From: Desulfatiglans anilini DSM 4660
GTDB taxonomy: Bacteria; Desulfobacterota; DSM-4660; Desulfatiglandales; Desulfatiglandaceae
Reading direction: 5' to 3'
NCBI RefSeq assembly: GCF_000422285.1
Contig: NZ_KE383814.1
Location: 1 to 64,000, forward strand
DNA length: 64,000 nt
Shown here piece by piece: positions 3,022 to 39,911 of the stretch; the first letter of the stretch is position 1; the number at the start of each line of letters is the position of its first letter. The translations under genes and the position numbers were made by a program. The notes under the pieces were generated by a model. The model searched no databases. It saw only the letters and a list, made by a program, of their open reading frames with translations, and was not told where the DNA came from.

Positions 3022-3158
3022 AGTTTCTATCCGAACATGGTCTTTTTGGCCAATCTCGGCGTCAATCTGCACGTTTGCTTGTGCGGCGACCTGCAGGTCG
3101 CCTCCGCGCAATTGCTGCATTTCCTGGATATTGGAAGAACCGGGACCCGCCGCGAAGC
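3022..3158 (+). repeat. Dispersed palindromic repeat, copy A (right end missing)
   Basis: This copy keeps the left terminal sequence (a variant of GTTTCCATCCGGAAATG), the TTTTTGGCCAAT arm, the central hairpin GGCGACCTGCAGGTCGCC (about 3083-3101) within a longer stem of about 40 nt, the GATATTGG return arm, and the start of the ACCGGGACCCGCCGCGAAGC unit. The right terminal repeat is absent, so the copy is truncated just upstream of the histidine kinase gene. Other copies lie near 13.6, 17.9, 29.7, 32.8, 35.9 and 39.5 kb. Confidence 0.8.
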
Positions 3159-3254
3159 GATCGATCAGCATGCCACCCTTGTTCATCGCTGCGCCGTGGA
3201 TAAGGATCTCGTCGGTTCTGAAGCCCTTACGAGCCTATTTGGAAGATTTTTGAC

Positions 3255-5630
3255 ATGCCCCCAGATGCAGACACTATCCAACCGCCCACGGGATCCGAGG
3301 GATCCGAAGAGAAGGTACAGCACTGTCAGCATCACCATGCCGAGACCGGACAGCGTGAGCTTATCCTTTCTCTTGCGATAGAACGTCTTGACGTGCCGCT
3401 TCTAGTGATCGACGCCGAGCATCTTATCACCCACTGCAGCAAGGCGTATGAAAGGCTTGCCGGAATTCCGGCTGAAGGCATGATCGGGACGAAGGGCCAA
3501 TGGCGGACCTTTTTCCTGGAGCCCGGGCCGGTGCTGCTGGACCTCGTTGTCGACCGGGCACCGGAGGCGGAGATCATGGCGCGCTTCGGCCCGGGGTGCC
3601 GCAAGTCGCCCTTGGCGGAGGATGCCTGGGAGGCGGAGCGTTTTTTGCCGGCCCCCGACGGGGGCGGCAAATGGTTCCTGTTTACGGCGGTGCCCCTGAA
3701 GGATGAAAACGGCCGGGTCACCGGGGCCGTGGAGACCTTCAGGGAGGTGACCAAAGGCCACCGGATGCAGGACGCCCTGCGCCGGACCTCGGTCCGCCTC
3801 CAGACGCTGGTCGATTTCATCCCCTACCCGATCGGCGTGTTCACCATGGACGGGCACCCGACCTATCTCAACCCCTATTTCACGAAGGTCTTCGGGTGGA
3901 CCCTCGAAGACTTCCAGGCGGGGAGGGTCCCCTTCGTCCCGTTCGATCAGGTCCAGAGCACCCTGGAAGAGTTGAAGCGCCTTCGCCAGGACAAGATCCT
4001 GGTGCACCACGAATCCAAGCGGTTGACTAGGGACGGGCGCCTGCTGGACGTCTCCATCCGCGCGGCGGTCTATGCCGAAAGCCTGGATGATCTGGCCGGC
4101 GTCATCGCCATCTACCGTGACATCACCAAGGACAAGCGCATGGCCCGGATCCAGGAGGCCATGCTCCAGATCAGCCTCGCCCTTCCGAAGTATCCGGAGC
4201 TCCACGAGCTGCTCCATTTCATCAACACGGAGGTGAAGGACCTCGTCGAATCGGAGGGGTGCGTGGTGATTCTTCCGGACGAGGAAAAGCAAGAGCTCTA
4301 CATCACGGGGGCGGCCTACGATCAGGACGAGGCCATCCGGCGGGCCGCGGAGGTCAGGTTCCGCTACGACCAGCTCATGGCCGGGGAGGTCATCCGGACC
4401 GGCAAGCCGATGATCGTTTCGGATACTTCCCGGAACCGGGAACTCCATGAGGAGCGGGATCGCAAGCTGGGGTACAGCACCCGGAATCTGGCGCTCGTGC
4501 CCCTGGTGGGGAGAAACCGGATCAAGGGCGCCATCTGCGCCATCAACAAGCGGGACGGGGATTTCAAGCCGTCGGACATCGAACTGCTGGAGATGGTGGC
4601 CGGGACCGTCGCCGTGGTCATCGCCTACGCCCAGGTCTCTGAAAAGCTCAAGTCGGCCTACAATGAGCTCTTGAGCATGAACAAGGCGAAGGACAAGATG
4701 ATCAACCACCTCTCGCACGAACTGAGGACGCCGCTTGCGGTTCTCATGTCCACGATGACGATCGTCTCCCGGAAGCTGAAGCACCTGCCCGAGGCGGAGT
4801 GGGCGCCGACCCTGGAAAGGGCCCGCAGGAACCTCAACCGCCTGGTGGAGATCCAGCGCCAGGCGGAGGATATTCTGATGGGCGGTTCACTCCAGACCCA
4901 GGATGTCATGATGCTCCTGCTCGAAGAGTGCACCGACGAACTCGAGGCCCTGACGGCGGAGGAACTGGGGGAGGGGGTGGCCGTCCAGAAGATCCGAAGG
5001 CGCATTGACGATCTTTTCGGCCCGAAAACGAGCGAGTCCGAGAAGATCCTGCTGGATGGGTTCGTCGGGGAGCGGATCTCGTTTCTGAAGCCCCTGTTCG
5101 CCCACCGGCATGTCGACGTGAGCTTGGCGGCCGAGCCGGGGCCGGCCGTTTGGATCCCCCGGGATGTGCTCGAGAAGCTGGTCGACGGGCTTGTCCGCAA
5201 CGCCGTGGAGAACACCCCCGACGAAGGGCGGATCGACGTCCTCGTCCACCCGCGGGGAAGCGGAATGGAGCTGGTCGTCCACGACTATGGGGTCGGAATC
5301 CCGGAGGAGGCGAAGAAACGCATATTCGAAGGGTTTTTTACGACAGGCGACACCCTTTCCTACTCCTCCAAGAGACCCTACGACTTCAACGCGGGCGGCA
5401 AGGGGGCGGATCTCCTCAGGATGAAGATGTTCTCCCAACGCTATGGGTTCGAGATCCGGATGACGTCGACCCGGTGCCGTCATCTTCTCGACGGCGCCAG
5501 CGTCTGTCCGGGAGGGATATCCCTCTGTCCGTTCTGCGCCGGCCCTGAAGACTGTTACGGGTCCGGGGAGACCACCTTTTCCCTGTATTTCCCTTCCAAG
5601 GGTGACGAACAGGACATCCGGAACCTGTGA
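3255..5630 (+). CDS. PAS-PAS-GAF sensor histidine kinase with Cys-rich C-terminal insert
   Basis: Soluble-looking sensor kinase of 791 residues with no transmembrane segment or signal peptide. The order is PAS domain (~43-165), second PAS (~180-290), GAF domain (~300-460), dimerisation/phosphoacceptor domain with His488 in a SHELRTP H-box, and ATPase domain with N-box Asn649 and G1 box D677-x-G679-x-G681. After the GGKG motif, before the last strand, there is an insert with five cysteines (741, 751, 758, 761, 767). This is unusual for a kinase ATP-binding domain and suggests a metal- or redox-responsive element. The first PAS is clearly related to the second PAS of the kinase at 33158. The ATG at 3255 has a modest ribosome-binding site, and the first ~35 residues are poorly conserved-looking. 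No response regulator is adjacent, so the partner is unknown. Confidence 0.88.
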   Translation: MPPDADTIQPPTGSEGSEEKVQHCQHHHAETGQRELILSLAIERLDVPLLVIDAEHLITHCSKAYERLAGIPAEGMIGTKGQWRTFFLEPGPVLLDLVVDRAPEAEIMARFGPGCRKSPLAEDAWEAERFLPAPDGGGKWFLFTAVPLKDENGRVTGAVETFREVTKGHRMQDALRRTSVRLQTLVDFIPYPIGVFTMDGHPTYLNPYFTKVFGWTLEDFQAGRVPFVPFDQVQSTLEELKRLRQDKILVHHESKRLTRDGRLLDVSIRAAVYAESLDDLAGVIAIYRDITKDKRMARIQEAMLQISLALPKYPELHELLHFINTEVKDLVESEGCVVILPDEEKQELYITGAAYDQDEAIRRAAEVRFRYDQLMAGEVIRTGKPMIVSDTSRNRELHEERDRKLGYSTRNLALVPLVGRNRIKGAICAINKRDGDFKPSDIELLEMVAGTVAVVIAYAQVSEKLKSAYNELLSMNKAKDKMINHLSHELRTPLAVLMSTMTIVSRKLKHLPEAEWAPTLERARRNLNRLVEIQRQAEDILMGGSLQTQDVMMLLLEECTDELEALTAEELGEGVAVQKIRRRIDDLFGPKTSESEKILLDGFVGERISFLKPLFAHRHVDVSLAAEPGPAVWIPRDVLEKLVDGLVRNAVENTPDEGRIDVLVHPRGSGMELVVHDYGVGIPEEAKKRIFEGFFTTGDTLSYSSKRPYDFNAGGKGADLLRMKMFSQRYGFEIRMTSTRCRHLLDGASVCPGGISLCPFCAGPEDCYGSGETTFSLYFPSKGDEQDIRNL

Positions 5631-5647
5631 GAGACCAGGACCACGAT

Positions 5648-5693
5648 GCGCTCCCCCGGCCCGCTCCGCCGGCGGAGCGGGCCGGGGGAGCGC
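5648..5693. terminator. Perfect 46-nt GC-rich palindrome between kinase and kdnB
   Basis: Bases 5648-5670 are exactly complementary to 5671-5693: 23 bp with no loop and no mismatch, almost pure G+C. It starts 18 nt after the kinase stop. There is no T tract, so it may be a Rho-dependent or bidirectional terminator, or a cruciform. Confidence 0.6.
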
Positions 5694-5863
5694 TTGAACG
5701 CTGAGGGGCTCAGGCCTGGTGCCTGCCCGAACGCCTTTCCTCCGAAGATCTTTCCTTGATAAATCCATCGCGTTGGTTTATCTCTGGATGCTGCCGGTGT
5801 CTGGACGAAGCCGGACGGGCGCCCCAGGGGCGCCGGGCATCCCTGTACCTCGAGGAGACCGTC

Positions 5864-7030
5864 ATGAAACGTTTGATTACCATCGAAGGGGTCAAAAAGA
5901 CCCTGTTCGGCAGCGGGGCGGTAGGCAGCCTGCCGGCCGAACTGGAGGCATTGGGGGCCGCCCGCGCCATGCTGGTCATGGACCGGGCCCTCTCCGAAAT
6001 GGAGCTCGGCAGACGTGTGCAGGAGATCCTGGCGCAAGGGCCGGTCGAGGCGTTGCCCTTCTTCCGGGTCAGCCCGGAGCCCGCCCCCGAACTGGCGGAC
6101 GAGGGCGCGGAACTGGCCCGGCAGGAACAGGTGGATTGCGTCATCGGCGTGGGCGGCGGGAGCACGCTCGATGTGGCCAAGGCCATCGGGGTCCTGGCGA
6201 AGAACGAGGGGAAGGCCCTCGACTACGTGGGGCTCAACCTGGTGAAGGCCCCCGGCCTGCCGACCGTCATGGTTCCGACAACGGCCGGGACCGGCAGCGA
6301 GACGACGTTCACGGCGGTTTTCACCATGCGCGGGACCAAGACCAAAGGGGGGATCAACAGCCCCTTCCTGTATCCCGTTCTGGCGATCCTCGATCCGGAA
6401 TTGACCCTCGGGCTTCCGCCCTATCCGACCGCCTACACGGGGATGGACGCCCTGACCCATGCGATCGAATCCTACACGTCGCTCCAGTCGCATTTCGTCA
6501 CGGATGCCCTCTCCCTCGAGGCGGTCAAGATGATCGCCGGGAGCCTGCGGGGGGCCGTCTTTCAGGGGGGCAATCTTCATTATCGCATCCGGATGCTGCA
6601 GGCGAGCTATCTGGCGGGTCTCGGGTTGGCGATGAGCGGCGTGGGGGCGGTGCACGCATTGGCCTATCCGCTCGGGGCCTTTTTCGATATCCCGCACGGG
6701 ATCGCCAACGCGCTGATGCTTCCTTATGTGCTCGATTTCAACTTCCCCGGCAGCACGGAAAAGTTCGCCGCGGTGGCCGTCGCCATGGGGGCCCCGGCCA
6801 AGGGCAGGAGCGAAAGGGCCCTCGCCGCCGAGGCCGCCGAACGGGTGTGGGAGCTTTCCCAGGACATCGGCGCGCCGCTCAGGCTGCGGGACCTGGGGGT
6901 CCCGGAGGACGCCATTCCCCGGATGGCCGAGGCGGCTATGAACGTTACGCGGCCCATCCTGAACAACCCCCGGCCGATGAGTGCCGCCGCGGCTGAAAAG
7001 ATCTACCGGCGCGCGTTTGAAGGCCGTTAG
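5864..7030 (+). CDS. kdnB: Iron-containing alcohol dehydrogenase, probable Kdo 8-oxidase KdnB
   Basis: Group III (Fe-type) alcohol dehydrogenase of 388 residues. The Rossmann GGGS motif is at 97-100, and the metal ligands expected for the family are visible as Asp195, His199, His264 and His278. The ATG at 5864 follows GAGGAG; an in-frame upstream extension lacks a ribosome-binding site. The next gene on the same strand is a close match to KdnA, and in Shewanella KdnB (this same family) oxidises C8 of Kdo so that KdnA can transaminate it. The pair should make 8-amino-3,8-dideoxy-manno-octulosonate for the LPS inner core. On its own this gene could be any Fe-ADH; the specific call rests on the pairing. 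A weak sigma-70-like box pair (TTGATA, 16 nt, TTATCT) lies at 5756-5783. Confidence 0.75.
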   Translation: MKRLITIEGVKKTLFGSGAVGSLPAELEALGAARAMLVMDRALSEMELGRRVQEILAQGPVEALPFFRVSPEPAPELADEGAELARQEQVDCVIGVGGGSTLDVAKAIGVLAKNEGKALDYVGLNLVKAPGLPTVMVPTTAGTGSETTFTAVFTMRGTKTKGGINSPFLYPVLAILDPELTLGLPPYPTAYTGMDALTHAIESYTSLQSHFVTDALSLEAVKMIAGSLRGAVFQGGNLHYRIRMLQASYLAGLGLAMSGVGAVHALAYPLGAFFDIPHGIANALMLPYVLDFNFPGSTEKFAAVAVAMGAPAKGRSERALAAEAAERVWELSQDIGAPLRLRDLGVPEDAIPRMAEAAMNVTRPILNNPRPMSAAAAEKIYRRAFEGR

Positions 7031-7185
7031 TCCGAAGGACGGCCGGTTTCGGCCGCAGGGAAAAGCGGCTGTGAAACCGGAAACGAGGCGCCTTCCGAAA
7101 AGGCGCAGATATGAGGATGACCCTATGCGGGAGGCCGGAGCCTTCGCGGCCTCGGGGCTGCAAACAGGGAAAAGAGGAGGGCGCC

Positions 7186-8388
7186 ATGCCGGGTTTTGAA
7201 GTGCTGGGGGAAGAAGAGCGGAAAGAGGTCCTGGATGTCTTGTCGCGCAAGGTCCTGTTCCGCTACGAGTTCGACAAGGAGCGGCAGGGGATCTACAAGG
7301 TGGCGGAGTTCGAGAAGGCCTTCGCGGACTATTGCGGCGCCGGATGGGCCCTGGCGGTCTCCTCCGGGACGGCGGCGCTGCGGGTGGCCCTGGCGGCCCT
7401 CGGGATCGGGCCGGGGGACGAGGTGATCACCCAGGGATTCACCTTCGTGGCGACCTGGGAGGCGATCCTGGACATCGGGGCGGTCCCGGTGTTTGCCGAG
7501 ATCGACGACACCTTCTGCCTCGATCCTGGGGATGTGGCGCGCAGGATCACCCCGCGGACCAGGGCGATCGTCCCGGTGCACATGTGCGGAGGCCAGGCGC
7601 GGATCGAGGAGATCATCGCGGAGGCATGCCGCTTCGATCTGCCCGTGATCGAAGACACCGCGCAGTCCTGCGGCGGGCGGATCCGGGGAAAACACGTGGG
7701 GACTTACGGCCGCATGGGGACGTTTTCCTTCGATTCGGTCAAGACCATGACGACCGGGGAAGGCGGCATGGTGCTTTTCCAGGACGAGGAGGCCTACATC
7801 CGGGCGAGTGAATACCACGACCACGGGCATGATCACGATCCCGCCGTGGGCCGTGGACTCGAGAAACGGAATTTCATCGGGTTCAATTTCCGCATGATGG
7901 AACTGCAGGGGGCGCTCGGCCTGGCGCAGCTTCGGAAGCTCGACCGCGCGATCCTGGCCCCTCAGCGCGAGAACAAGCGGCGCATCCAGGTGGCCCTGTC
8001 CGAGATCCCGCAGGTGCAGCTGCGCTCATCCCCCGACCCCGATGGGGATATCGGTTCCTTCCTGATGTTTTCGCTTCCGACGGCCGGGCAGGCCCGATCC
8101 TTTGCCCAAGTGATGAAGGAGGCCGGGTGTCCGCCCGTCTACTGGTACGACAACACCTGGCATTATTACGGACACTGGGAGCATCTCCTGGGGGGAAAAA
8201 CGCCCTTCCGGTCGGGGTATCCCTTCAGGACGCCCGAGGGCGCGACGCGCTGCACCTATGACCCCGATGCCCTGCCGCGCACCGCGGAGCGGCTTTCGCG
8301 CTGCCTGACCATCCCGATTCAGATCCGGATGGACGACCAGATCCCGAAGATCATCGCGGCTATTGAGAAGGCCGCCAGGGTTCTTTAG
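7186..8388 (+). CDS. kdnA: 8-amino-3,8-dideoxy-manno-octulosonate transaminase KdnA
   Basis: DegT/DnrJ/EryC1 fold aminotransferase of 400 residues. The PLP-binding lysine is Lys186 in SFDSVKTMTTGEGG. Beyond the family level it carries features I know from Shewanella KdnA: the MPGFE start, SFDSVKT, the HDHGHDH loop, NFRMMELQGALGLAQLRKLD, and YWYDNTWHY near the C-terminal domain. KdnA transfers an amino group from glutamate to the 8-aldehyde of Kdo made by KdnB. The ATG at 7186 follows AGAGGAGGGC, a strong ribosome-binding site; the longer in-frame reading from 7111 has none. No kdsB-type CMP-transferase is nearby, so activation of the sugar must be encoded elsewhere. Confidence 0.83.
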   Translation: MPGFEVLGEEERKEVLDVLSRKVLFRYEFDKERQGIYKVAEFEKAFADYCGAGWALAVSSGTAALRVALAALGIGPGDEVITQGFTFVATWEAILDIGAVPVFAEIDDTFCLDPGDVARRITPRTRAIVPVHMCGGQARIEEIIAEACRFDLPVIEDTAQSCGGRIRGKHVGTYGRMGTFSFDSVKTMTTGEGGMVLFQDEEAYIRASEYHDHGHDHDPAVGRGLEKRNFIGFNFRMMELQGALGLAQLRKLDRAILAPQRENKRRIQVALSEIPQVQLRSSPDPDGDIGSFLMFSLPTAGQARSFAQVMKEAGCPPVYWYDNTWHYYGHWEHLLGGKTPFRSGYPFRTPEGATRCTYDPDALPRTAERLSRCLTIPIQIRMDDQIPKIIAAIEKAARVL

Positions 8389-8394
8389 TATCGG

Positions 8395-8436
8395 TCCGGA
8401 AATGGTGGTCCGGCACGACCTGTTTCCGGATGGAAG
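8395..8436. repeat. Collapsed copy of the dispersed palindromic repeat (ends only)
   Basis: TCCGGAAATGG at 8395 and TTTCCGGATGGAAG at about 8423-8436 match the left and right terminal sequences of the repeat at 32810-33087, but only ~17 nt lies between them. It sits between the convergent kdnA and glnD genes. It reads as an internally deleted or excised copy; the short length makes this tentative. Confidence 0.45.
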
Positions 8437-8506
8437 CACGTTAAAAAATCAGGACGATATCTGAGACGGCTTACGGCCCCGGTCCCGCCTGCGTCTGCGG
8501 GCGGCG

Positions 8507-11116: not shown

Positions 11117-11268
11117 GGTCGATCAGGGCAGCGCGGCCTTGGATCTGCAGGCCCCGGCCCTGTCCGGGTGCCGGAGCGATGCGGGCGGGGGAAAACCGCC
11201 GGCCGGCGCAGGGGAAAAAGCACCGTTATCCACGGACGGCGAAAGCTCAAACGGCGCGGAAACAGCCC

Positions 11269-11971
<703 letters not shown>

Positions 11972-13192: not shown

Positions 13193-13218
13193 TCAACCTT
13201 TTCGGGATTGGAGAATGA

Positions 13219-13560
<342 letters not shown>

Positions 13561-13736
13561 CTCCCAGCCGGAAATGGTCTTTTTAGCCAATCTCTGCGTC
13601 TATCTGCACGTTTGCTTGTGCGGCGACCTGCAGGTCGCCTCCGCGCAAACGCTTGATTTCCTTGATATTGGATAAAAATCCTCCTTTCCGGCTTGGAAAC
13701 CGGGTTCTACCGGGAAATCATTTTCGGATGGATACC
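13561..13736 (+). repeat. Dispersed palindromic repeat, copy B
   Basis: The copy starts right after the glnK stop codon. The left end (GCCGGAAATGG) and right end (TTTTCGGATGGATACC) are diverged terminal inverted repeats. The central hairpin GGCGACCTGCAGGTCGCC lies at 13622-13639, flanked by the TTTGCTTGTGC / GCGCAAAC stem and the TTTTTAGCCAAT / GATATTGGAT outer arms. It lacks the 52-nt units seen in the copy at 32810. It could terminate the amtB-glnK transcript. Confidence 0.85.
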
Positions 13737-13800
13737 AGATAGCGCCCGGCCGGAAAGGGCCTTTTCGGTCGATCTGCGGCGGCAGCGGCGAGAGGTGGTT

Positions 13801-17832: not shown

Positions 17833-17894
17833 GGAGCATCGGCTCGCCTGCCGCGTGCCGCTCAAACGATTCGCCCCGCCGTCCCCATTTTTTC

Positions 17895-17990
17895 CCCGGC
17901 GTAAAATGGTCCTTTTTTCCTATATCGGCGCCAGCTTGCCTGTCTGCTTGTGTTGCCTCGTCTGCAGGGCCTCCCAGAAAACCGCCTGAT
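17895..17990 (+). repeat. Strongly diverged copy C of the palindromic repeat
   Basis: The order AAATGGTCCTTTTTT, then CTGTCTGCTTGTG, CTGCAGGG and a T-rich return arm parallels the other copies, in the same orientation, but the stem arms are mostly lost. Assignment rests on collinear short matches and is tentative. Confidence 0.4.
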
Positions 17991-18066
17991 TTATTTGCAG
18001 AGGGATCCGCTTCTATGGCATTGGAGACCAGTTCGCCGTGGCCTTTGATCTCCGGACAACTGCTTG

Positions 18067-27517: not shown

Positions 27518-27525
27518 CTTATGCC

Positions 27526-27561: not shown

Positions 27562-27623
27562 AGCCCTGTTTTTATCCGAGAGATCCAGAGGCAGCCGTCT
27601 TTCCGTCGCGGCTTACGCCTCGT

Positions 27624-27803
27624 GTTCAGGCAGGTCTTCTGACTTCCCCGTCCTTCCAGCGACCTTCCCATTCCGGTTGAGGCGGAACAGTGGTCCATGC
27701 ATGCTGAAAGGTTTCCCTGCGTTGCAGCGGAGCGGAGTTACAGCGGCGGGCCCATCCCCGATTCGCACGGGGTTCCCTATTAAGCCTCGTAAGGCGCCTG
27801 AAC
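27624..27803 (-). promoter_or_regulatory. Cobalamin (AdoCbl) riboswitch
   Basis: The minus-strand RNA has the closing P1 stem (27796-27803 with 27624-27631, GCCTGAAC/GTTCAGGC), AATAGGGAACCCCGTG, AATCGGGG, a CCGCCGCTGTAA block, GACCACTG, and the terminal GGGAAGG ... GTCAGAAGACCTGCC core. These match the B12 riboswitch. It should switch off btuF-btuC-btuD-exbBD-tonB-cobTS when adenosylcobalamin is plentiful. Confidence 0.95.
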
Positions 27804-28129
27804 ATGCTTGAGTGGGTTTCCCGCTCCTAACAAGGATCAGGAACCCGGTCTCGCTTCAAGACCAGAAAGACCGGCGCCGATCTATCCCGGGGAAGAGGGC
27901 GGGCACCCGGCTGGACTTCACAGCAGACCTTCCGACTACCGGGTAGTGTGCCACACGACACCGGTGCATCAGCGCGATTTCCAGGTTGAAGCGAGTCTGG
28001 CGATTATTTTGAGTAAATAGTGTAAGACGAAGGCGGGGATTCTGTCAAGCGGCAAAACGACCGAGAGGCAGAGAGGGCAATGGGGAGCAGCATGCCCCGG
28101 GAAAACCGCTATCCGATTGCACCGATGCG
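27804..28129. other. Upstream region of the cobalamin operon; no gene seen
   Basis: About 330 nt between the B12 aptamer and the protease terminator. It should contain the operon promoter on the minus strand, but I cannot point to convincing -35/-10 boxes. A second B12 aptamer is not present. Confidence 0.4.
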
Positions 28130-28176: not shown

Positions 28177-28210
28177 CGCCTGTCTTGCTGCTGCCGGTCA
28201 AAAACGATTG

Positions 28211-29566: not shown

Positions 29567-29961
29567 CGTCGCACCTCCCCATCAAAATAGGATTCAAACG
29601 GTTGGAAACACCCTTATCGCTAAGGTCGTCCTGCAGCGGTTTTTACCGGGGATCTGGCGTATGAACATCTCCGGGTGCCAAACGCGCTTAGGCAGGCTGA
29701 TCGGTTTCCCCAGGGAAACCGATCTTTTCGGACAATCTCGGGATCCATTTGCAGGGTTGCCTGTGCGGCGACCTGTGCGCCGCCTCCGTGCAAACGCCCG
29801 CTCCTCTATACAGCGGCAAAAGGTCCGCATTTCCGGATGAATATATCGATTGACAGGTTTGCCGGCCCGCCGTTCTAAAAAAACCCGATCGATGCTCGTT
29901 CCATCTGTGAAAATTTTTCGAAAGCCGGTGCAGGCCCAGAAGGGAATGAACTTATGGGCGA
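29567..29961. other. Gap holding repeat copy D; no gene
   Basis: The 395-nt gap holds diverged palindromic repeat copy D and a perfect hairpin (ATCGGTTTCCC/GGGAAACCGAT, 29700-29723). Start signals of the protease lie at the left edge. No gene is supported. Confidence 0.5.
29700..29850 (+). repeat. Dispersed palindromic repeat, copy D (diverged)
   Basis: The left end has mutated into a perfect hairpin of its own (29700-29723). It is followed by TTTTCGGACAATCTCGGG, CTGTGCGGCGACC, CGCCGCCTCCGTGCAAACG and, near 29829, ATTTCCGGATG. The central palindrome is altered to GGCG...CGCC, so the arms still pair. Same orientation as the other copies. Confidence 0.65.
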
Positions 29962-30429: not shown

Positions 30430-30842
30430 CCATTCGGGTTGAAAGCGAGGGCCTCCGAAGGGCTTGAATTCCATGCCCTGCAGCCTACCAGAAGCGTCCT
30501 TTGTCATGCGGAATCGAATCATGTGCAATGATCGATTCGGGGTCATAAACAAACAACTCTCTGCAAAACTTGGAATGCGGACGATTCCTCCGTAGCAGGA
30601 AAAAAACCAAATGAATAGTTGATAGCGCGAAAGAAGGGTAGCAATAAAATACTTTAGAGTTGCATTCCAGCACAAAAGGTAAATGATTGCAATAAAAATG
30701 ATTCAACCGAATCCATTCGCATGCCTGGGATCACGTCCATGGTTAATTATAAGTGTTTGAAATTGTTTTGTTTGAGCATATCTACTTGAGCATGTGACTG
30801 GTGGAGATTCCCACGCGGGGGTCCTCCGCAGTCCGGGGCGCA
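30430..30842. other. AT-rich gap without a supported gene
   Basis: About 410 nt that is markedly more AT-rich than its surroundings (especially 30590-30790) between the small exported protein and the CBS protein. It should hold the promoter of the exported-protein gene. No gene, tRNA or repeat copy was found. Confidence 0.4.
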
Positions 30843-31268
30843 TCAAGCCGCGGATTCGACCAGGTTCCAAAGGGGGAGGATCCCCACGTTCCCGATGATC
30901 CGGCGTTCCCGGTCGACGACGGGGATCTCTTTGATGTTGTGGGCAGCCATTCTTTCGAGGACTTCCTCGATATCGTCGTCTTCCAGGGCATAGATCACGT
31001 GCTTGTCGGCAATGTCCGATACGGATTCGGCGGTGATCAGGGAGAGGGTCCGCGTGAACGAATGCGGGCGGCGGATGGCCATGATGCTGCGGATCAGGGC
31101 TCCGAGTGACACAGAACCCTTCAGCCGGCCTTCGGGGTCCACGAGGTAGAGGCCTCTGACCTGCTCCAGACCGGCGATCTTCCGCGCCACCTCCTTGAGG
31201 GGGCAATCCTCCTCGACTGTCAGATAGGACGTGTTGCCAATGGTTTGGAGCGCCTGGGATACCTTCAT
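30843..31268 (-). CDS. Two-CBS-domain regulatory protein
   Basis: Protein of 141 residues made of two CBS motifs (~7-60 and ~75-135), which usually bind adenine nucleotides. It ends in VVDRERRIIGNVGILPLWNLVE. Its ATG overlaps the antiporter stop by 4 nt, with GGGAGAAAG just upstream, so the two are translationally coupled. It is likely to regulate the antiporter in response to nucleotide state, in place of the fused TrkA-N domain found in classical KefB/KefC. Confidence 0.85.
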   Translation of the reverse strand: MKVSQALQTIGNTSYLTVEEDCPLKEVARKIAGLEQVRGLYLVDPEGRLKGSVSLGALIRSIMAIRRPHSFTRTLSLITAESVSDIADKHVIYALEDDDIEEVLERMAAHNIKEIPVVDRERRIIGNVGILPLWNLVESAA

Positions 31269-32503: not shown

Positions 32504-32809
32504 CTTTGAGCACCTTTGCCGGGGGCGGTGGGCGGATCGCCCTGTGCTCCCGGAGCCTCCCTCTGGAAAGATCGATACCGATCCGCGTCGAGGGGTCGAA
32601 TGCCGGGTACGCTGCCGATGAAAAACCCGAATGGGATAGATCATACCAGAAACCGCTTCCGCGGACAACCCGCCTCCGTCTTGATCCCGGGGCGGCCTTG
32701 CCGTCGTCATGAAGGCATGGTAAGCTGAAATGAAATTGTCGCAGCTGAGATTTTGTCTGCCTCCGATGAGCATGCTCGTGTTGAGGCTACGGCACTGCCA
32801 TAGCAATGA

Positions 32810-33087
32810 GTTTCCATCCGGAAATGGTTTTTTGGCCAATCTTGGCGTCAATCTGCGCGTTTGCTTGCGTGGCGACCGTCAGGTCGCCTCCGCGCAACCG
32901 ATTGATTTCCTTGATATTGGCCAAACCGGGACCCGCCGCGAAGCGGTGGGACTGAGCACCCGAAGGGTGTGAAGAAACCGGGACCCGCCGCGAAGCGGTG
33001 GGACTGAGCACGCGCAGCGTGTGAAGAAAATTCCTCATTCCCGGATTGGAAACCGGGTTCTCCGGGAAATCATTTCCGGATGGAAAC
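32810..33087 (+). repeat. Dispersed palindromic repeat, copy E (full length)
   Basis: A complete copy with perfect 17-bp terminal inverted repeats: GTTTCCATCCGGAAATG at 32810-32826 and its complement at 33071-33087. Inside are the TTTTTTGGCCAAT / GATATTGGCCAAA arms and the central stem GGCGACC/GGTCGCC with loop GTCA, where the other copies have TGCA. Two tandem 52-nt units (32925-33028) follow, then a GATTGGAAACCGGGTTCTCC tail. No open frame for a transposase fits inside. A target-site duplication is not evident. Confidence 0.88.
32925..33028. repeat. Two tandem 52-nt units with covarying hairpins
   Basis: Units at 32925-32976 and 32977-33028 both begin ACCGGGACCCGCCGCGAAGC and contain hairpin CCGC-GAA-GCGG. 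The second hairpin is CACCC-GAA-GGGTG in unit 1 and CACGC-GCA-GCGTG in unit 2, so one stem pair has changed on both sides. Confidence 0.85.
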
Positions 33088-33157
33088 CAATTAGGTTTAG
33101 GTTGAAGGAGCCCGGTTAGAAGTCCCATCGAGCGGTGGGATTGTCCCGGAGGGGGTA

Positions 33158-35851
33158 GTGGCCATGAAGGACGAAGCGAAGACCAAAGAAGAGTTGCTGC
33201 GTGACTTGCGGGAATTGCGGGGCCGTTTGGCGGCCCTGGAATCCGATTCGAGCACGGTCTGCCCCGATGAGGAGCAGCAGCGAAGAATGGAGGCGGCGCT
33301 GCGCGAATACGAGCGGAAGTGCCGGGTGATTTTCGATCAGACCTTCCAGTTTATCGGTCTTCTGACCCCGGACGGCACCCTCGTGGAGGCCAACAGGACC
33401 GCGCTGCAATTCACTGGCGCCCGGCCTTCGGATGTCATCGGCAAGCCGTTCTGGGATACGCCCTGGTGGCGGCATTCGAAACCTTTGCAGGAGCGGCTCA
33501 AAGAGGCCGTAAAGCAAGCGGCTGCCGGAGAGTTTGTGCGGTTCGAAGTAACCCATACGGCGGCTGACGGAGAGCTGCGCTGCATCGATTTTTCGCTGAA
33601 GCCGGTCCGGGACGAGCGGGGCGAGGTCGTTTATCTCATCCCGGAAGGGCGCGACATCTCGGAACAGAAACGGATTGAAAAAGAACTCCAGCGTTATCGT
33701 GAACACCTCGAGGTGATGGTCAGGGAGAGGACGGCACAGCTGGAGGCGGCGAACGAGGACCTCAAAAAAGAAATGCAGGAGCGCCGCCGGGCGGAAGAGG
33801 CGGTCAGGGAGCGCGAAAAGACGCTTGTCGAGATCGTGCAGGGAAGCCCGATTCCCACCTTTGTAATCGACACCGAACATGTCGTCACCCACTGGAACAA
33901 GGCCTGTGAAACCCTGACAGGCATTCCTGCGGAGAAGATGATCGGGACGAGGGATCAATGGCGCGCCTTCTATCCGGGCGAACGTCCGGTCATGGCGGAT
34001 CTGATCGTGGACCAGGCATCGGAGGCCGAGTTGGCCGCCTATTACGGGGACTGCCATCGTCCATCGGTCGTGAGGGAGGGCGCCTGGGAAGCCGAACGGT
34101 TCTTTCCATCGCTGGGTAAAAAAGGCAAATGGCTGTTTTTTACCGCGGCGCCTCTGAGACGCTCCGACGGCGTCATCATGGGCGCGATCGAGACGTTGCA
34201 GGATCTGACCGAGCGCCATTTGACGGAGGACGCCCTGAGACTTGACGAGGCCCGCCTCGAGGCGCTGCTGAAACTCAATCAGATGGGCGAAGGGTCGATG
34301 CAGGAGATCGCCGGATTCGCCCTCGATCAGGCTGTTTCTTTGACGAAGAGCAAAATGGGATATGTGGGCTTTGTCGATGCGGACGGCAGGACGTTGACCA
34401 TCCACGCCTGGTCGGCGGCGGTGGCCCGTGAGTGCACCATCGAGGCAAAACCCACCGTGTTCGCGCCGGAGACCATGGGCCTCTGGGGAGAGGCGTTGAG
34501 GCAGCGAAAACCCGTGATCACCAATGACTACCGCGCCCCCAACCCATGGAAGAAAGGGTATCCGCCGGGGCATCCGCGCTTGATCCGGCACATGAACATC
34601 CCGGTGTTCGAAGGCGACCGGATCGTCGCCCTGGCGGGGGTGGCCAACAAGGCGGACGATTACGACGGGTCGGACGTCCGCCAGATCACCCTGCTGATGC
34701 AAGGGATGTGGCGGCTTCTCGAGCGACGGCGGGCCGAGGAGGAGCTGCGCAGGCATCGCGATCATCTGGAGGAGTTGGTCAGGGAGCGTACAGCGGACCT
34801 GATCGAGTCGGAGGAGAAGTACCGCACCCTGGTCGAGAACGTGCCGCTGGTCGTCTACCGCGTTTCACTGGACGGGAAGGTGTTGTTCGTCAACCATTTC
34901 GTCACCGAGATCTTCGGCTACAGCCCGGCCGAGATATTCCGCTGCCCCGCTTTGCTCTTGAAGGACTGCGTGTGCAGCGAGGACCTCGAGATCGTCAAAG
35001 AACTCCGTGAAAAAACGCTTCATAAGGGTCAGGAGTTTCTGGCCGAGTACCGCATCCGGCACAAGAAGGGGCATGTGGTCTACGTGATGGATCACGCTAT
35101 CCCGTTTGAATCGCCGGATGGCCGGATCAAGGGGGCGGACGGGATCATCATGGATGTCACCAGCCGGATCAAGCTGCGGGAAGAGCTGGTGCGCGCCGAA
35201 GAGCAGAAGACCATTACGGAGGTCTCCGCCCGGCTGGCGCATGAAATCCGCAATCCGCTGGTGTCGGCCGGCGGGTTTGCGAGGCGGCTTCTGGCCTCGA
35301 TGGATCAGCACGATCCCAACCGCGCGAAGGTGGAGATCATCGTCAAGGAGGTTCGCCGTCTGGAGACGATCCTCCGCATGATCCTCAACTACCTCCAGCC
35401 GGTCAAGCTGTATCTTTCGAAGAACGATCCCAACGGGCTCGTCGAGAACGCCCTGAACGCGGTCGAGTCCGAGCTGAGAGAAAGCGGCGTCGCGGTGCGG
35501 CTCGATCTCAGTCCGGATGTGCCCGAGATCACCGTCGACCGCCTGCAGATCGAACTCGTCCTGGAGACCCTGATCAAGCAGGCCATCAACCAGATCAAGG
35601 ACGGAGGAGAGCTTTTTATCGGCACCACCGCAGCCGAGGGGGTTCTCAAACTGGTGATGAAATACCCCGTCAAACACGTTTCAAGGGATGATGTCGAGCA
35701 TTTCTTCTACCCGTTCATCTCGTCTGAAAAGGCCTACGACACGGCGGACCTCCCGCTCTCCAAGATCGTCATCAACAAGCACGGGGGCGACATCGATGTC
35801 AGGCTCGAGAAGCCGGATACGCTGGTGCTCCGGATCCTGATGCCCCTCTGA
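33158..35851 (+). CDS. Multi-PAS/GAF histidine kinase with degenerate ATP-binding domain
   Basis: Signal-transduction protein of 897 residues with no membrane segment. The order is coiled coil, PAS (~55-175), coiled coil (~180-225), second PAS (~230-350, related to the first PAS of the kinase at 3255), GAF-like domain (~365-530), third PAS (~560-675), and phosphoacceptor domain with His695 in AHEIRNP. In the ATPase domain the N-box Asn is Gln808 (LIKQAIN). The DxGxG G1 box is missing: the segment reads LVMKYPVKHVSRDDVEHFFYPF. The glycine-rich G2 loop reads YDTADLPLSKIVINKHGG. It may not autophosphorylate and could act as a phospho-relay or scaffold. GTG at 33158 or ATG at 33164 could both use GGAGGGGG. 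Confidence 0.85.
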   Translation: MAMKDEAKTKEELLRDLRELRGRLAALESDSSTVCPDEEQQRRMEAALREYERKCRVIFDQTFQFIGLLTPDGTLVEANRTALQFTGARPSDVIGKPFWDTPWWRHSKPLQERLKEAVKQAAAGEFVRFEVTHTAADGELRCIDFSLKPVRDERGEVVYLIPEGRDISEQKRIEKELQRYREHLEVMVRERTAQLEAANEDLKKEMQERRRAEEAVREREKTLVEIVQGSPIPTFVIDTEHVVTHWNKACETLTGIPAEKMIGTRDQWRAFYPGERPVMADLIVDQASEAELAAYYGDCHRPSVVREGAWEAERFFPSLGKKGKWLFFTAAPLRRSDGVIMGAIETLQDLTERHLTEDALRLDEARLEALLKLNQMGEGSMQEIAGFALDQAVSLTKSKMGYVGFVDADGRTLTIHAWSAAVARECTIEAKPTVFAPETMGLWGEALRQRKPVITNDYRAPNPWKKGYPPGHPRLIRHMNIPVFEGDRIVALAGVANKADDYDGSDVRQITLLMQGMWRLLERRRAEEELRRHRDHLEELVRERTADLIESEEKYRTLVENVPLVVYRVSLDGKVLFVNHFVTEIFGYSPAEIFRCPALLLKDCVCSEDLEIVKELREKTLHKGQEFLAEYRIRHKKGHVVYVMDHAIPFESPDGRIKGADGIIMDVTSRIKLREELVRAEEQKTITEVSARLAHEIRNPLVSAGGFARRLLASMDQHDPNRAKVEIIVKEVRRLETILRMILNYLQPVKLYLSKNDPNGLVENALNAVESELRESGVAVRLDLSPDVPEITVDRLQIELVLETLIKQAINQIKDGGELFIGTTAAEGVLKLVMKYPVKHVSRDDVEHFFYPFISSEKAYDTADLPLSKIVINKHGGDIDVRLEKPDTLVLRILMPL

Positions 35852-35854
35852 GTT

Positions 35855-35970
35855 TTCCTCCGGAAAGGCCCTTTCTGACCATCCCGGCTTCGATGTGCGC
35901 GTTTGCTTGTGCGGCGGACCTGCAGGTCGTCTCCGCACAAGCACTGCTTTTCCCTGATATGGCCAAAAAA
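35855..35970 (+). repeat. Dispersed palindromic repeat, copy F
   Basis: It begins 4 nt after the kinase stop codon. CTCCGGAAAGGCC left end, then GCGCGTTTGCTTGTGCGGC, GGACCTGCAGGTC centre, CTCCGCACAAGC, and a CCCTGATATGGCC return arm. The right terminal repeat is missing. It lies between convergent genes, so it may serve as a terminator for both. Confidence 0.75.
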
Positions 35971-35977
35971 ATCTCAT

Positions 35978-36457
35978 TCAATAAATCATTCCGGCGACAT
36001 AGACACCCGCGCCTACGAAGAGATTGGTGTCGGGGACCCTGTAAATGAAGGTCGTCTTTTTTGTCGGCGTGGTCTTGCCGGGTTTGGGCCACATGTAATC
36101 GACCCAGCCGCTGCCGCTGGTTCTGGCGATGTTCACGAAATGAACAAAAAGAGCCTTGCCGGTGGGGTCGGTCAGCAGCAGAACATGATCGTATTTGGTC
36201 AGTTCGGGCTGCATCGGATGGGCGAGCATCTTCCCGTTGATGTCCATCAGGAAGACGTAGGAGTCCTTCCAGACGAAAGGCCCATTCGGGTCGTTGAGGA
36301 GTCTGACGGCCTCATCCTGCCCCTGTGATGTGACGGTGGCCGCAGCTTCGTAGCACTTGACGACGCACTCTTCCTTGGTTGCCGTTTCGTCGGCGCGGAG
36401 GGCCGAGGGTGACAGAAACAGGATCCCGAGGATTGCGATGACACGAATCAATGACAT
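35978..36457 (-). CDS. Periplasmic single-Cache-domain protein
   Basis: Exported protein of 159 residues with a signal peptide (~1-23, ending SALRADE). The rest is one small-ligand-binding Cache fold (single Cache type 2). Typical stretches are the N-terminal helix with repeated Ala/Val, FVWKDSYVFLMDINGKMLAHP, GKALFVHFVNIARTSGSGWVDYMWPKPG and a closing VPDTNLFVGAGVY. It has no membrane anchor or output domain, so it is a free periplasmic binder. The ATG follows CAAGGAGGGG. It is 147 nt downstream of an acetate-type permease on the same strand, which hints at a small carboxylate ligand; that is inference. Confidence 0.82.
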   Translation of the reverse strand: MSLIRVIAILGILFLSPSALRADETATKEECVVKCYEAAATVTSQGQDEAVRLLNDPNGPFVWKDSYVFLMDINGKMLAHPMQPELTKYDHVLLLTDPTGKALFVHFVNIARTSGSGWVDYMWPKPGKTTPTKKTTFIYRVPDTNLFVGAGVYVAGMIY

Positions 36458-36604
36458 GTTACCCCTCCTTGGAAATTGCGGGTTTCTGCTGTCCGGATGC
36501 CTTTTCACGGGGCTCCCGGCGGTGCTCCTAGGACTTCTTGCAATGCGCCCCGCTCCGGTCGAGGCGGCTGCGGACGCTGTTCTTCGGCATCTGGGCGCCG
36601 GCAT

Positions 36605-37174
36605 CTATCGGATCCAGGGTTTTCCGACCGGCAGGACATCCCTTCCGAAGACCTGGGCGAAGATCACATGGGCCATCATGTACCAAGCCGACAGGGCGCA
36701 TAACATGAGTTCGTAGCCGGCGATCTTGACCATCCCGGGGTAACCGAAATGGGCGAGGTCCAGCAGGATGAAACCGATCAGGAGCAGAGTGAATGTGATG
36801 GCCATGGCGCTGTGGATTTTCATGGCTGGTATCCACATGATGAAGGTATAAAGCGTCCAGCCGATCAGGAACCATCCAGTGTCCGTGGTGCTGGAATGAT
36901 AGATGTTGAAGTGGTTGAGCAGAAAGATGATCCCGAGGGCGATCCAGAAGGATCCGTAGGCGACGAATGCGCTGTATCCGAAGTTGTTGCCGGACTGGTA
37001 TTCCTGAAATCCGGCGATCATCTGCGCCAGGCCCCCGAAGATGAAAGCGAGGGCGACGATCGGACCCACTCCGCACCATCCTACGTTGTGGAACTGGAGG
37101 ATCATCGTTGTCATCCCGAAACCTGCCAGGCCCACGACCCCGGGGTTTCCTTTGGGGCTTTCTCCATTGGACAT
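36605..37174 (-). CDS. SatP/GPR1-FUN34-YaaH family acetate permease
   Basis: Membrane protein of 189 residues with six helices. The family start NPGVVGLAGFGMTTMILQFHN fits the GPR1/FUN34/YaaH NPxxxGL motif, and GFQEYQSGNNFGYSAFVAYGSFWI is also typical. Members move acetate and succinate with protons. The ATG at 37174 has AGGAGGTG upstream. With the Cache protein it may form an acetate transport-and-sensing pair. Confidence 0.9.
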   Translation of the reverse strand: MSNGESPKGNPGVVGLAGFGMTTMILQFHNVGWCGVGPIVALAFIFGGLAQMIAGFQEYQSGNNFGYSAFVAYGSFWIALGIIFLLNHFNIYHSSTTDTGWFLIGWTLYTFIMWIPAMKIHSAMAITFTLLLIGFILLDLAHFGYPGMVKIAGYELMLCALSAWYMMAHVIFAQVFGRDVLPVGKPWIR

Positions 37175-37706
37175 AGGACACCTCCTCAACGGCTAAGATT
37201 GACGCTTGGACTCTTATCCGACAAACCGCACCGCAACGCAGCCGCGGAGATTTTGCCGGGGGGCACCGCGCCTGCGATTCCTTGTTTTGGCTGCAGCATA
37301 CCGAGGGCCCAGCCTACAGGGCCCTGCCTGGCCTGCGAGGGGCGCCGGCACCAGAGGGGGGTTGAGGCCGGTCCGATTGGATGTCTGGTCGAGATCGATG
37401 GTCAACTGTCCAGAGATACGTTCATGAAGCGGCAAGAAATACGGGAAAAGTCGCCTGTTGAGAAATAGGGGGGCTGTTTCAGGCATCCTCGATGCACCGT
37501 TGAATCACAAGAGGCCGTTTCCGCCTGAGGGGCTCCAGTATGCGCCGCATCGCTGCGGCCAGGGGGGCTGTAAGGGTCTGAAACCGTTTTTTCCACCATA
37601 GCATTTCAGGGAAGATATGCAAGTGTTTCTCGCGCAGGAAGGGGGGGCGCATGGTGAAATCGCACTCGACGGGGATGGTGGGACAAGACCCCCGGAAAAA
37701 CGGGCC
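37175..37706. other. 530-nt gap without a supported gene
   Basis: Between the permease start and the end of the Fur-FeoA gene. Contains a small hairpin (GCCGCATCGCTGCGGC, 37549-37564). Open frames on both strands look like shadows. No repeat copy was found. Confidence 0.4.
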
Positions 37707-38420
37707 TCAGTCGAGGGGCTGGGTGCAGACCGGCGTCGTCTCGGGCGTGACCGGGGAGACGAGAAGTTTTTGGGCGATGCCCCGCCCGAGGGCCATCCGG
37801 CTGCAATTGTGGGCGAAGATGAGATTCCCCTGCCCGGCATTGCTGATGATTTCGATGGTGTCTCCCAGGCGGAGCCCGAGGGCCGCCAGCCTGGCGCGCG
37901 AGAATGCGCCGCTCAGGATGTCGCGGATGGCGACGATTTCTCCCGGTTTGGCCATCGAGAGGGGCATAAGCGGTTTTCTCTGGGCCATACAGGCATCGCA
38001 GAGGCCGTAGATCTCCAGGCGGTGCTGCAGGATGTGAAAGCCGTGCTGGGCGGCTATCGCTATCTGCAGCTTCTCGAGATCGTCGTTCGCGAATTCGACG
38101 ATCTTTCCGCATTTGGTGCAGATCAGGTGGTCGTGGTGGATGCCCAGGTGCCGATGTTCGTAGCGGATGGGCTGATCCGCGAACTCCTTCCGCTGCGCAA
38201 AGCCGAGGTCCACCATACGGTGGAGGCATTGGCGCACGAATTCGGGCTCGATATCTTCGCCCCTGCTTTCCAGGAGACGGTAGATCTCTTCGAGCGTCAT
38301 ATGCTCTTCGGAACTGAGAAAGGCGTCGACCACCTTCAGCCGGTCTTCGATCCGGTCGGAGCCGTCGGCTTCGATGAGTCTTCGAAAATTTTCCTTCTCC
38401 AAAAAATCATTGTTTTTCAT
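37707..38420 (-). CDS. Fur-family regulator fused to a FeoA domain
   Basis: Fusion of 237 residues. Residues ~1-148 are a Fur-type metalloregulator: winged helix (~20-85), then HHDHLICTKCGK with Cys101/Cys104 and GLCDACM with Cys141/Cys144 for structural zinc, and further metal-site His residues at 91 and 95-98. Residues ~152-222 are a FeoA SH3-like domain (LSMAKPGEIVAIRDI, RLAALGLRLGDTIEI, SRMALGRGIAQKLLV). Fur represses iron-uptake genes with Fe(II), while FeoA normally assists the FeoB iron channel. No feoB is nearby. DtxR-family regulators often carry a C-terminal FeoA-like domain, but a Fur version is unusual. The 15-residue tail is not conserved-looking. Confidence 0.9.
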   Translation of the reverse strand: MKNNDFLEKENFRRLIEADGSDRIEDRLKVVDAFLSSEEHMTLEEIYRLLESRGEDIEPEFVRQCLHRMVDLGFAQRKEFADQPIRYEHRHLGIHHDHLICTKCGKIVEFANDDLEKLQIAIAAQHGFHILQHRLEIYGLCDACMAQRKPLMPLSMAKPGEIVAIRDILSGAFSRARLAALGLRLGDTIEIISNAGQGNLIFAHNCSRMALGRGIAQKLLVSPVTPETTPVCTQPLD

Positions 38421-38496
38421 GATCAGCGGATTCCGTGCCTTTGTTTCTGGTCCAACTTCAGATCACCCATCCTCCCGGTCGGAGCGCGGTGCCCTT

Positions 38497-39390
38497 TCAT
38501 ACCTGGATGCCGGCCGAGAAATAGCCGAGGAAGCCTTTGACGGCGTTGGCTATGAAGGTCCTTTCCCGGGCCTGGGTGGGCGGGTCCATGCCCTCGAAGG
38601 CGTCGAGATTCGAGTCGTTTGCGAGCAGCGCACGGACGCACCTGTCCAGGACATCTCGATCACCGTGCCGCAGTTCGGCTTGGATGATGTCCGCCCACAG
38701 CAGAAGCTGTTCGCGAAAAGCGGTCAGCCAGGGCCGCGAATGCTCGTTCCAGCCGCAATGGGCATAACAGATGGGCTGGTCCTCGAAAGCGAGGAGCGTG
38801 TCCACGCTTCGAAGGCAAACGTCGAGGAAGAAACGCGGCGGGGTTGCCGGTCTGAGGTAATCCCGTCCGGAGACCCTGAAGTAGTTGCCGGCGGCTTCCC
38901 CCGCGAACAAGCGGCCGCCATAAAGGAAACTGAGGTGATGCAGGGCGTGCCCGGGGGTTTCGGCGATCGTCAGGCCCTCGATGGCGGCCTCCGGATGGGC
39001 GATCAGTTTTTCCGGCCGGATCGGGCCGGGCGCACCGTAAGCTTCGGCCAGTTCGCCGAGGACAGCCAGGCTCCCCTTCCATAATTTCTCTGGATTGACG
39101 AGGAAGGGAAGACCTGCGGCGTGGCAGATGACCTTCGCAGAGGGATAAGCCTCGAGAAGGGCGGCGAGTGCGCCGCAGTGATCGATATGGACGTGAGTCA
39201 GCAGCACGTAATCGATCCGGGCCAAACCACGTGACCGCAGGGAAGCGATCAGCCGGCCTGCCGTTCGCGCAGGGCCGACATCGATAACCAGGTTCAAAGG
39301 CCCTTCGCAGAGCCAGGCGCCGAAAAAGGGTGCAAAACCGGGAAGGTCCTGCTCGATGTGGATGAGGTCGAAGGAGACGGGTTCGGTCAT
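38497..39390 (-). CDS. Metallo-beta-lactamase-fold hydrolase
   Basis: Cytoplasmic MBL-fold protein of 297 residues. The metal motif is LLTHVHIDHCGAL (HxHxDH), with a further His in TPGHALHHLS and an Asp/Glu position in LFAGEAAGN. No signal peptide. The substrate is unknown; the size and pattern suit a glyoxalase II-like or other thioester hydrolase. It is 76 nt upstream of the Fur-FeoA gene on the same strand and may be cotranscribed with it. Confidence 0.8.
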   Translation of the reverse strand: MTEPVSFDLIHIEQDLPGFAPFFGAWLCEGPLNLVIDVGPARTAGRLIASLRSRGLARIDYVLLTHVHIDHCGALAALLEAYPSAKVICHAAGLPFLVNPEKLWKGSLAVLGELAEAYGAPGPIRPEKLIAHPEAAIEGLTIAETPGHALHHLSFLYGGRLFAGEAAGNYFRVSGRDYLRPATPPRFFLDVCLRSVDTLLAFEDQPICYAHCGWNEHSRPWLTAFREQLLLWADIIQAELRHGDRDVLDRCVRALLANDSNLDAFEGMDPPTQARERTFIANAVKGFLGYFSAGIQV

Positions 39391-39911
39391 GTCATGGGGT
39401 CGCTTTCATGGGTGATGCGGACGGGAATGCACCGTCCGTTCGCGTCCCTGAGGACGAACTGGTTCCCATCCGGAAATGGTCTTTTTGGCCAATCTCCGCG
39501 TCAATCTGCGCGTTTGCTTGTGCAGCGACCTGCAGGTCGCCTCCGCACAAACGTTTGATTTCCCTGATATCAGCCAGACCGAGACCCGCCCCGAAGGGGG
39601 GCCCGGGCACCGGAAGGGCGTATATAAAAATCCTCATTTCCGGATTGGAAACGGGGTTCTAGTGGCAAATTATTTCCGAATGGACACCGAAACATAATAG
39701 AGGAATCGAAACCGGCAAGTCAAGCCGGCCTTTCGCCGCCGCGCCGACAGCGTTTCCGGGATGCGAACGGGGTTCACCGGGAGGACGAAAGGTGCTATAG
39801 TGTCGCCCCGGAGGCTTCGCAGAGCGCCGGCCGACTGCGGTTTCGGGGCTGGAGGCTTTCGTTTGAAAAAGATTGTCATAAGCCGCGAAAGTGAAAGGGG
39901 TGCTTGCAGCC
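39391..39911. other. Divergent region holding repeat copy G
   Basis: 520 nt between the MBL hydrolase and diguanylate cyclase starts. Palindromic repeat copy G fills 39461-39688. The remaining 220 nt up to the cyclase hold no supported gene. Confidence 0.5.
39461..39688 (+). repeat. Dispersed palindromic repeat, copy G (nearly full length)
   Basis: Left end GGTTCCCATCCGGAAATGG, right end TATTTCCGAATGGACACC: imperfect terminal inverted repeats. Centre CGACCTGCAGGTCG within a long stem, outer arms TTTTTGGCCAAT / GATATCAGCCAGA. It has one diverged 52-nt-type unit whose hairpin is CCCC-GAA-GGGG where copy E has CCGC-GAA-GCGG. Same orientation as the others. Confidence 0.85.

Follow-up and report, generated by a model that had tools for sequence, protein, structure and literature searches.

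Palindromic elements of the window and their abundance

The window, by which we mean the whole stretch of 64,000 nucleotides analysed here (61% GC), carries a series of long palindromic elements among genes such as glnB, glnD and a gene for a Na/H exchanger. It belongs to a genome assembly of 4.67 Mb in 107 contigs (G000), which is considered here together with a sister species (G001), a member of another genus (G007) and 58 other relatives. A profile search with module A, the palindromic part of the element, gave matches at exactly seven places of the window and no others (3023, 13560, ~17902, 29703, 32810, 35852 and 39462), in agreement with the seven palindromes that the original prediction had placed near these positions. 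The copies and their parts are as follows:

3023..3161, plus strand: copy 1, module A and the start of a B unit; intact right end absent
8388..8437, plus strand: possible minimal copy of 50 bp, two end repeats only; absent from the list of the original prediction
13560..13735, plus strand: copy 2, complete A-C element of 176 bp between glnB and glnD
17895..18000, plus strand: copy 3, module A, decayed (profile match 17902-17998)
29703..29843, plus strand: copy 4, A-type element, decayed
32810..33087, plus strand: copy 5, complete A-B-B-C element of 278 bp
32923..33026, plus strand: the B units of copy 5, two of 52 nt arranged in tandem, two hairpins in each
35852..35977, plus strand: copy 6, module A without its right end; convergent genes on either side
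39462..39687, plus strand: copy 7, element of module A, a degenerate B unit and module C

The general plan of the element is A-B(0-2)-C, with module A being a long imperfect palindrome of about 115-125 nt and B a unit of 52 nt. Depending on the presence of zero, one or two B units, the elements measure about 176, 228 and 278-283 bp, respectively, and they terminate in the end repeats GTTTCCATCCGGAAATG. The stems of the B units exist in alternative versions, each of them internally compensated. As drawn originally, the element corresponded to module A, which stands, while the right module C and the B units had been missed; the perfect terminal repeats of 17 bp claimed for the full copy are indeed those of copy 5. 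Copy 4 is better preserved in the sister species, where the right end of its orthologue is clearer than in the window. In comparison to resampled windows, the constituent sequences are strongly enriched: a conserved arm of 28 nt (up to 8 mismatches) occurs five times (resampled 0.2, maximum 2) and the central palindrome (up to 4 mismatches) 12 times (resampled 0.7, maximum 3), six of these matches being located inside element copies and six outside.

To the extent tested, the copies do lie between genes as asserted, with two of them reaching the edges of genes. The first base of copy 2 (13560), located between the co-directional genes glnB and glnD, is at the same time the final base of the glnB stop codon, and the left end of copy 5 is overlapped by the Na/H exchanger if this gene is taken in its longest frame, which extends to 32851. 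The gene contexts of the window copies are mixed and do not represent one class of gene end. For the possible minimal copy at 8388-8437 a clear target duplication is absent; a comparable element consisting of little but two ends was observed at L049 (G025), the two spanning 50-54 bp. Apart from these elements, the window contains a cobalamin riboswitch (27612-27816, minus strand, 88.2 bits), a different repeat, TAAANGGGGTCGGACCA, near its end (63840-64000) with a length differing between G000 and the G001 orthologue, and two similar stretches forming an inverted pair (11396-11608 and 13221-13433). Since the latter stretch is inside glnB, the former is probably a second P-II gene.

When the whole genome of the window was searched for the 20-bp end, tolerating up to 3 mismatches, 198 + 202 = 400 matches were obtained, with 0 + 0 for the reversed control. 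Module matches form 18 clusters in 177.7 kb of the contig to which the window belongs, 15 of them with module A, which corresponds to about 390 A-bearing copies genome-wide if these 177.7 kb are typical of the 4.67 Mb. The anticipated hundreds of copies per genome were thereby confirmed, and a lack of further copies, named in the original prediction as an outcome that would speak against it, did not occur. The same end search yielded 542 matches in G001 and 322 in G007. Numbers in the other 58 relatives ranged from 0 to 54 (control, 0-3 per genome), with at least 15 matches in six of them (G011, G005, G018, G026, G057 and G049). A 283-bp stretch with copy 5 used as query matched in 23 of the 61 genomes. 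In a collection that may omit the genome of the window and those closest to it, a 48-bp pattern of the left end retrieved 82 stretches of named genomes bearing the titles of 14 isolates. For 13 of these the label is Desulfobacterales, Desulfobacteria, Desulfobacteraceae or Deltaproteobacteria, and for the remaining one just "Proteobacteria".

Insertion marks and a matching ISNCY-type insertion sequence

The fetched loci provided 107 end pairs, some of which are inner-end duplicates of one element. An exact 6-bp duplication flanks 32 of them (shuffled mean 1.0, maximum 5), increasing to 52 of 107 when up to one mismatch is allowed (7.2 shuffled), and a 7-bp duplication was recorded for three. 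The duplicated target is mostly TANNTA; the flanks of copy 5 read CAATGA and CAATTA. As expected for MITEs, the elements hence combine a short length, the lack of a transposase gene, a high copy number and terminal inverted repeats with a target-site duplication of 6 bp.

The comparison of orthologous intergenic sites, suggested along with the original prediction in order to define the ends and the duplication, was made between G000 and G001, sharing 94% identity across the 12 kb tested, and yielded pairs of filled and empty sites. Two sites are cleanly empty in G000 and occupied in G001, with a surplus of 182 and 183 bp. The extra DNA consists of a 176-bp copy plus GATCTA at the one site and plus TAGTCTC at the other, which, as a counterpoint, fits a duplication of 7 and not of 6 bp. 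Further differences concern the interior of the elements: at the orthologues of copies 2 (13560) and 7 (39462), G001 holds tandem A-A dimers with an identical TTTCC microhomology junction, and at the orthologue of the copy 5 locus (32810) module A is inverted or dimeric. With these different insertions and internal rearrangements, the G000/G001 pair represents a natural system for study.

Palindromic, intergenic and highly repeated sequences could also arise by segmental duplication or belong to the REP/RAYT type, without being MITEs of a DDE transposase. The flanks are unrelated among 36 aligned copies, so that the common flanking sequence by which a segmental duplication was to be recognized is missing. 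In combination with this, the 6-bp target duplications and the ends matching an insertion sequence (IS) with a DDE transposase refute this explanation, the probability of which is negligible. That the palindromes are copies of a MITE is near certain.

The matching IS was found among 29 PF01609 loci examined in G000, G001 and G007, three of which, all in G001, are flanked by MITE-type ends about 1.7 kb apart. Its outer 15 bp are identical to those of the MITE. The transposase (455 aa from the first Met, with DUF772 and DDE_Tnp_1 domains) reaches 438.9 bits against the NCBIfam model transpos_ISNCY_1 (cut-off 325), placing it with the ISNCY insertion sequences; unlike the MITE, the IS has no core. 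One of the three copies is flanked by the target duplication TAAATA. The flanks of the other two are unlike, a matching duplication being absent, and one copy has an in-frame stop. Matches to this transposase are present in 13 of the 61 genomes, mostly as fragments or distant relatives. A homologue in G016 (66% identity) has like ends and the target duplication TAATTA, and in G007 an end fragment of the transposase gene adjoins the end variant GTGTCC, which is also carried by the MITEs of that genome. The similarity between the MITE and the G001 IS, with only ~15 bp of the end in common and the core absent from the IS, falls short of indicating descent of the one from the other; the core is likewise absent from all six IS copies examined.

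A matching candidate for the source transposase called for in the original prediction was obtained from the sister species; the window's assembly yielded a match of 24 aa only and no intact transposase of the G001 ISNCY kind. A MITE need not strictly share its genome with a like-ended source IS, and none was detected in that assembly. At least three of its contigs (C1, C7 and C36) start inside a copy, a matter of practical relevance, from which it follows that repeats including an IS are possibly missing from the assembly. Probably, the genome of the window depends on an IS which it has since lost or which the assembly misses.

It appears close to certain that the MITEs are served by an ISNCY transposase. 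ISNCY-type transposases with a DUF772 and a DDE domain would act in trans at the GTTTCCATCC ends of the MITE and would insert it at TANNTA under duplication of 6 bp. The source IS possibly belongs to ISDol1, a subgroup name within ISNCY in the section of PMC8147514 on this group. The IS1202 family, which the corresponding section of PMC10132070 places within ISNCY and describes with outer ends TGT...ACA and target duplications of 3-5, over 15 or 0 bp, was rejected, as the ends GTTTCC...GGAAAC and the 6-bp duplication do not fit. Other candidates for an autonomous element were evaluated as well. Scanning 20 fetched stretches of relatives, the majority selected for a left end that stood alone or was incomplete, revealed no transposase between end pairs, and an end pair spaced by 1237 bp in L046 turned out to enclose, with a MITE on either side, a host gene that looks tetratricopeptide-like by eye. 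An extra 1.65 kb in G001, at the orthologue of the copy located at 138 kb of G000 contig C106, was dismissed as a source, too: an IS110-like element is situated there within or beside the MITE copy, next to the B units (joined-stretch 157576-159504), with a transposase which we take to be of the IS110-like family.

A folded core in elements with different ends

The fold of module A was evaluated with 20 diverse core sequences, using a structure derived from the fold of one sequence, in which the outer helix was placed manually. On this structure, 87.7% of the cells pair. Both-sided changes occur at 14 of 35 pairs in comparison to 10.6 in shuffled alignments (8 of 500 shuffles reach 14), and the covariation score amounts to 0.270, with 0.126 for shuffled and at most 0.092 for slid controls. 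An automatic consensus fold of A comprises 18 pairs, seven of them with both-sided changes. For a second core, termed K, which has the hairpin frame in common with A and a different though related apex, both-sided changes were found at 11 of 20 pairs with a score of 0.323 (0.131 shuffled, at most 0.098 slid), and the number of additional pair types shows no excess (16 versus 15.4; 239 of 500 shuffles reach 16). Copy 5 folds far below its shuffles (z -9.05), and four A units gave z values of -5.12, -2.38 (copy 7 of the window), -6.52 and -5.62. Module A is structured as a fold, the stems of which covary across genera. The initial alternative of a MITE or a structured RNA is thus settled in favor of the MITE by the terminal repeats, the 6-bp duplication, the filled and empty sites and the matching IS in the sister species, and the structured part is borne out at the level of a covarying fold.

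With covarying stems, a copy 5 folding this strongly and copy 2 (13560) positioned between two co-directional genes, one could regard the element as a domesticated structured RNA or a signal for transcription or mRNA stability, similar to ERIC, BOX or Correia elements, for which mobility would be secondary. We consider this improbable in view of the mixed gene contexts in the window, the decay of several copies and the presence/absence differences between close genomes; moreover, no family of Rfam 15 reaches its threshold on the element.

The core includes near-constant frame strands, 5' CTC-GGCGTCA and 3' TTCCTTGA-TTG. The assumption that they are wholly unpaired was abandoned, as part of them forms a short, hardly varying helix in the A structure, with one both-sided change in seven pairs. 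Since these strands lie either outside the covarying stems or in this short helix, they are a candidate site that may aid transposition or limit harm to the host.

Core K is present in an element with other ends (type ii) nested inside an A-type element with type i ends at L057, representing an observed case of nested insertion. The MITE of G007 shares the type i ends and target duplication (e.g., TATCTA at L225) and has the K apex. The type ii element of L057 as query matched in 28 of the 61 genomes and an element of a third type in 35 of 61, in some of them with the core only; neither query has a match in G000 or G001. The assignment of cores to end types, being a pattern count across the fetched loci from which unclassable cores were left out, is given below together with the target duplications:

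Type i, ends GTTTCCATCC: 6-bp duplication at 34 of 88 (1.24 shuffled); A core 43, K core 11
Type ii, ends GGAGGCTGTCCGAGAATG: TA at 6 of 10 (5.6 shuffled), a duplication being indistinguishable from a fixed TA target; K core 4
Type iii, ends GAGACCTTTGCAAAACG: 5-bp duplication at 12 of 21 (0.73 shuffled); K core 25
Type iii/vi: K core 1
Type iv: 4-bp duplication at 2 of 2, two elements only; K core 2
Type v, ends GTGTCCGAACGAAAACTG: exact 6-bp flanks TAAATA (L404) and TAACTA (L405), 5 of 6 in L399; K core 2
Type vii: A core 2
Unassigned ends: A core 12, K core 6

Among the K cores without an assigned end, L366, a looser hit in a viral contig, is due to chance, and L425 is a shortened type i element with the flanks AAGTTA. 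Core identity amounts to 81-93% among types ii, iii and iv, to 68-86% between these and type i, to 73-83% between these and type v, and to 62-75% between types i and v. Directly inward of the outer 15 bp, the sequences of types i and ii coincide (..ATGGCTATTTTTC; AAAAAATATCTCATT.., L033 and L213). As far as sequence identity in many genomes can tell, the conclusion that elements with different ends have one folded core in common is solid. In two K cores, L401 (G286) and L402 (G265), a different hairpin (GTAGGGGCACATTGCAATGTGCCCCTAC) takes the place of one side of the apex, which is swapping at the inner end, too.

Other sources of ends were sought in seven genomes, covering 30 loci of 122 PF01609 matches and six PF13358 matches. 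At a contig start in G035, type ii ends 2175 bp apart surround an IS1182 transposase scoring 398.4 bits (cut-off 270); the flanks are CTA and TAG, the left one comprising three bases. In G012, an IS5 transposase (176.9, cut-off 140) lies between a left end of type iii and a less strictly matching right end, with a spacing of 1447 bp; here, a matching duplication is absent and the right end is MITE-like in its outer part only. IS630, which the TA target had initially suggested as the family behind type ii, was discarded, the six PF13358 loci of the seven genomes being without type ii ends and the IS found being IS1182. DUF772 is present in all three transposases (ISNCY, IS1182 and IS5). As the transposases were searched by two domains only, this shared domain is no test; the best protein match between types is 28% over 151 aa (E 1.7e-5).

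On phylum level, the frame pattern was detected in 47 of 395 genomes, with three hits for a control pattern. Forty of the loci were read; by eye, 28 of the 47 genomes hold an element, the other 19 looking like single chance or coding hits. The frame thereby recurs in several families of the phylum. One K-core element used as query had no match in plasmids and phages. In viral contigs, at least 120 stretches match the loose frame pattern, and among the matches listed none has a recognisable apex.

Exchange of ends and relation to known elements

One folded core is found with end sequences belonging to three IS families and with target duplications that differ, so that the core is separable from the ends as a unit of descent. 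We regard it as very probable that the palindromes represent a non-autonomous MITE moved in trans by ISNCY-type transposases, with a folded core that would be re-equipped with ends. The core would be the lasting unit, adopting ends usable by a related transposase that is present, and the exchange might involve nested insertions, recombination, or a switch of template from one palindrome to another. Both nested insertions and dimers joined at microhomologies were observed and represent plausible steps of such an exchange, and the reasons for core retention as well as the way of end exchange are what we infer rather than observe.

The type ii element inside a type i element at L057, the TTTCC-joined A-A dimers of G001 and the alternative compensated stems of the B units also suit a plainer reading, in which these are ordinary MITEs with a palindrome devoid of function. 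Template switching would then compensate changes within the stems, and nested insertion or recombination would spread cores in repeat-rich genomes. We hold this to be quite possible, though short of probable. Template switching alone does not predict that strands outside the covarying stems are conserved across genera and end types, a conservation for which shared ancestry may account in part, and the recurrence of the frame in several families of the phylum likewise argues against a palindrome without function. At the other extreme, the hairpin core could be a true selfish lineage across the Desulfobacterota, swapping its outermost ~15 bp for the ends of resident DUF772-type transposases (ISNCY, IS1182, IS5), with its frame being a cis-acting site for these transposases or a common host factor. 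This is put forward tentatively, and we are more inclined to doubt than to assert it.

MITEs are normally seen as remnants of one IS and as bound to one transposase. Against this background, a small gene-less transposon borrowing the transposase of another element in hundreds of copies, with its core recurring in sister elements that carry the ends of other families, is unusual. In the open-licence literature, we found nothing describing this MITE family or an exchange of ends in bacterial MITEs. The separation of core and ends makes it testable whether the interior of a MITE, usually taken as filler, aids its spread, and how ends are exchanged.

Geobacter uraniireducens belongs to the same phylum as the organism of the window. 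Its MITE Chunjie is characterized in the relevant part of PMC10969869 by 178-235 bp, 38 copies, conserved ends, direct repeats and one copy located in an operon. By this description, our element resembles Chunjie in size range, conserved ends and direct repeats, and differs by an estimated copy number about ten times higher. High copy numbers are shared with the MITEs of the large sulfur bacterium Candidatus Thiomargarita nelsonii, according to the section of PMC4853749 devoted to them: the hupL MITE, with 19-bp inverted and 10-bp direct repeats and a source IS not found in that study, has matches on 260 of 439 contigs, and a second MITE is a hairpin. That section describes no core common to several end types. 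Nezha and RUP are small, folded MITEs for which the account in PMC3049150 proposes movement in trans by like-ended IS (ISNpu3-like and IS630-Spn1, respectively). As given there, each of them is tied to one IS, unlike the one core with several end types found here.

In terms of described architecture, a likeness can be drawn to the BOX elements of Streptococcus pneumoniae, which the pertinent part of PMC3049150 presents as modular A-B(n)-C, with variable tandem middle units, and as folded; their terminal repeats are said to resemble the IS ISSpn2, and elements of S. suis keep boxB with other end modules. Our elements likewise consist of end modules with variable tandem middle modules, in this case 0, 1 or 2 B units. 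Unlike BOX, they occur in another phylum, their outer 15 bp equal an IS end with a target duplication of 6 bp, and a related folded core is found with the ends of other IS families. Regarding the middle modules, tandem arrays of ~51-nt units resembling module B were observed at L055 and L056 (G018) linked to type i ends, suggesting that B may constitute an independent family of repeats.
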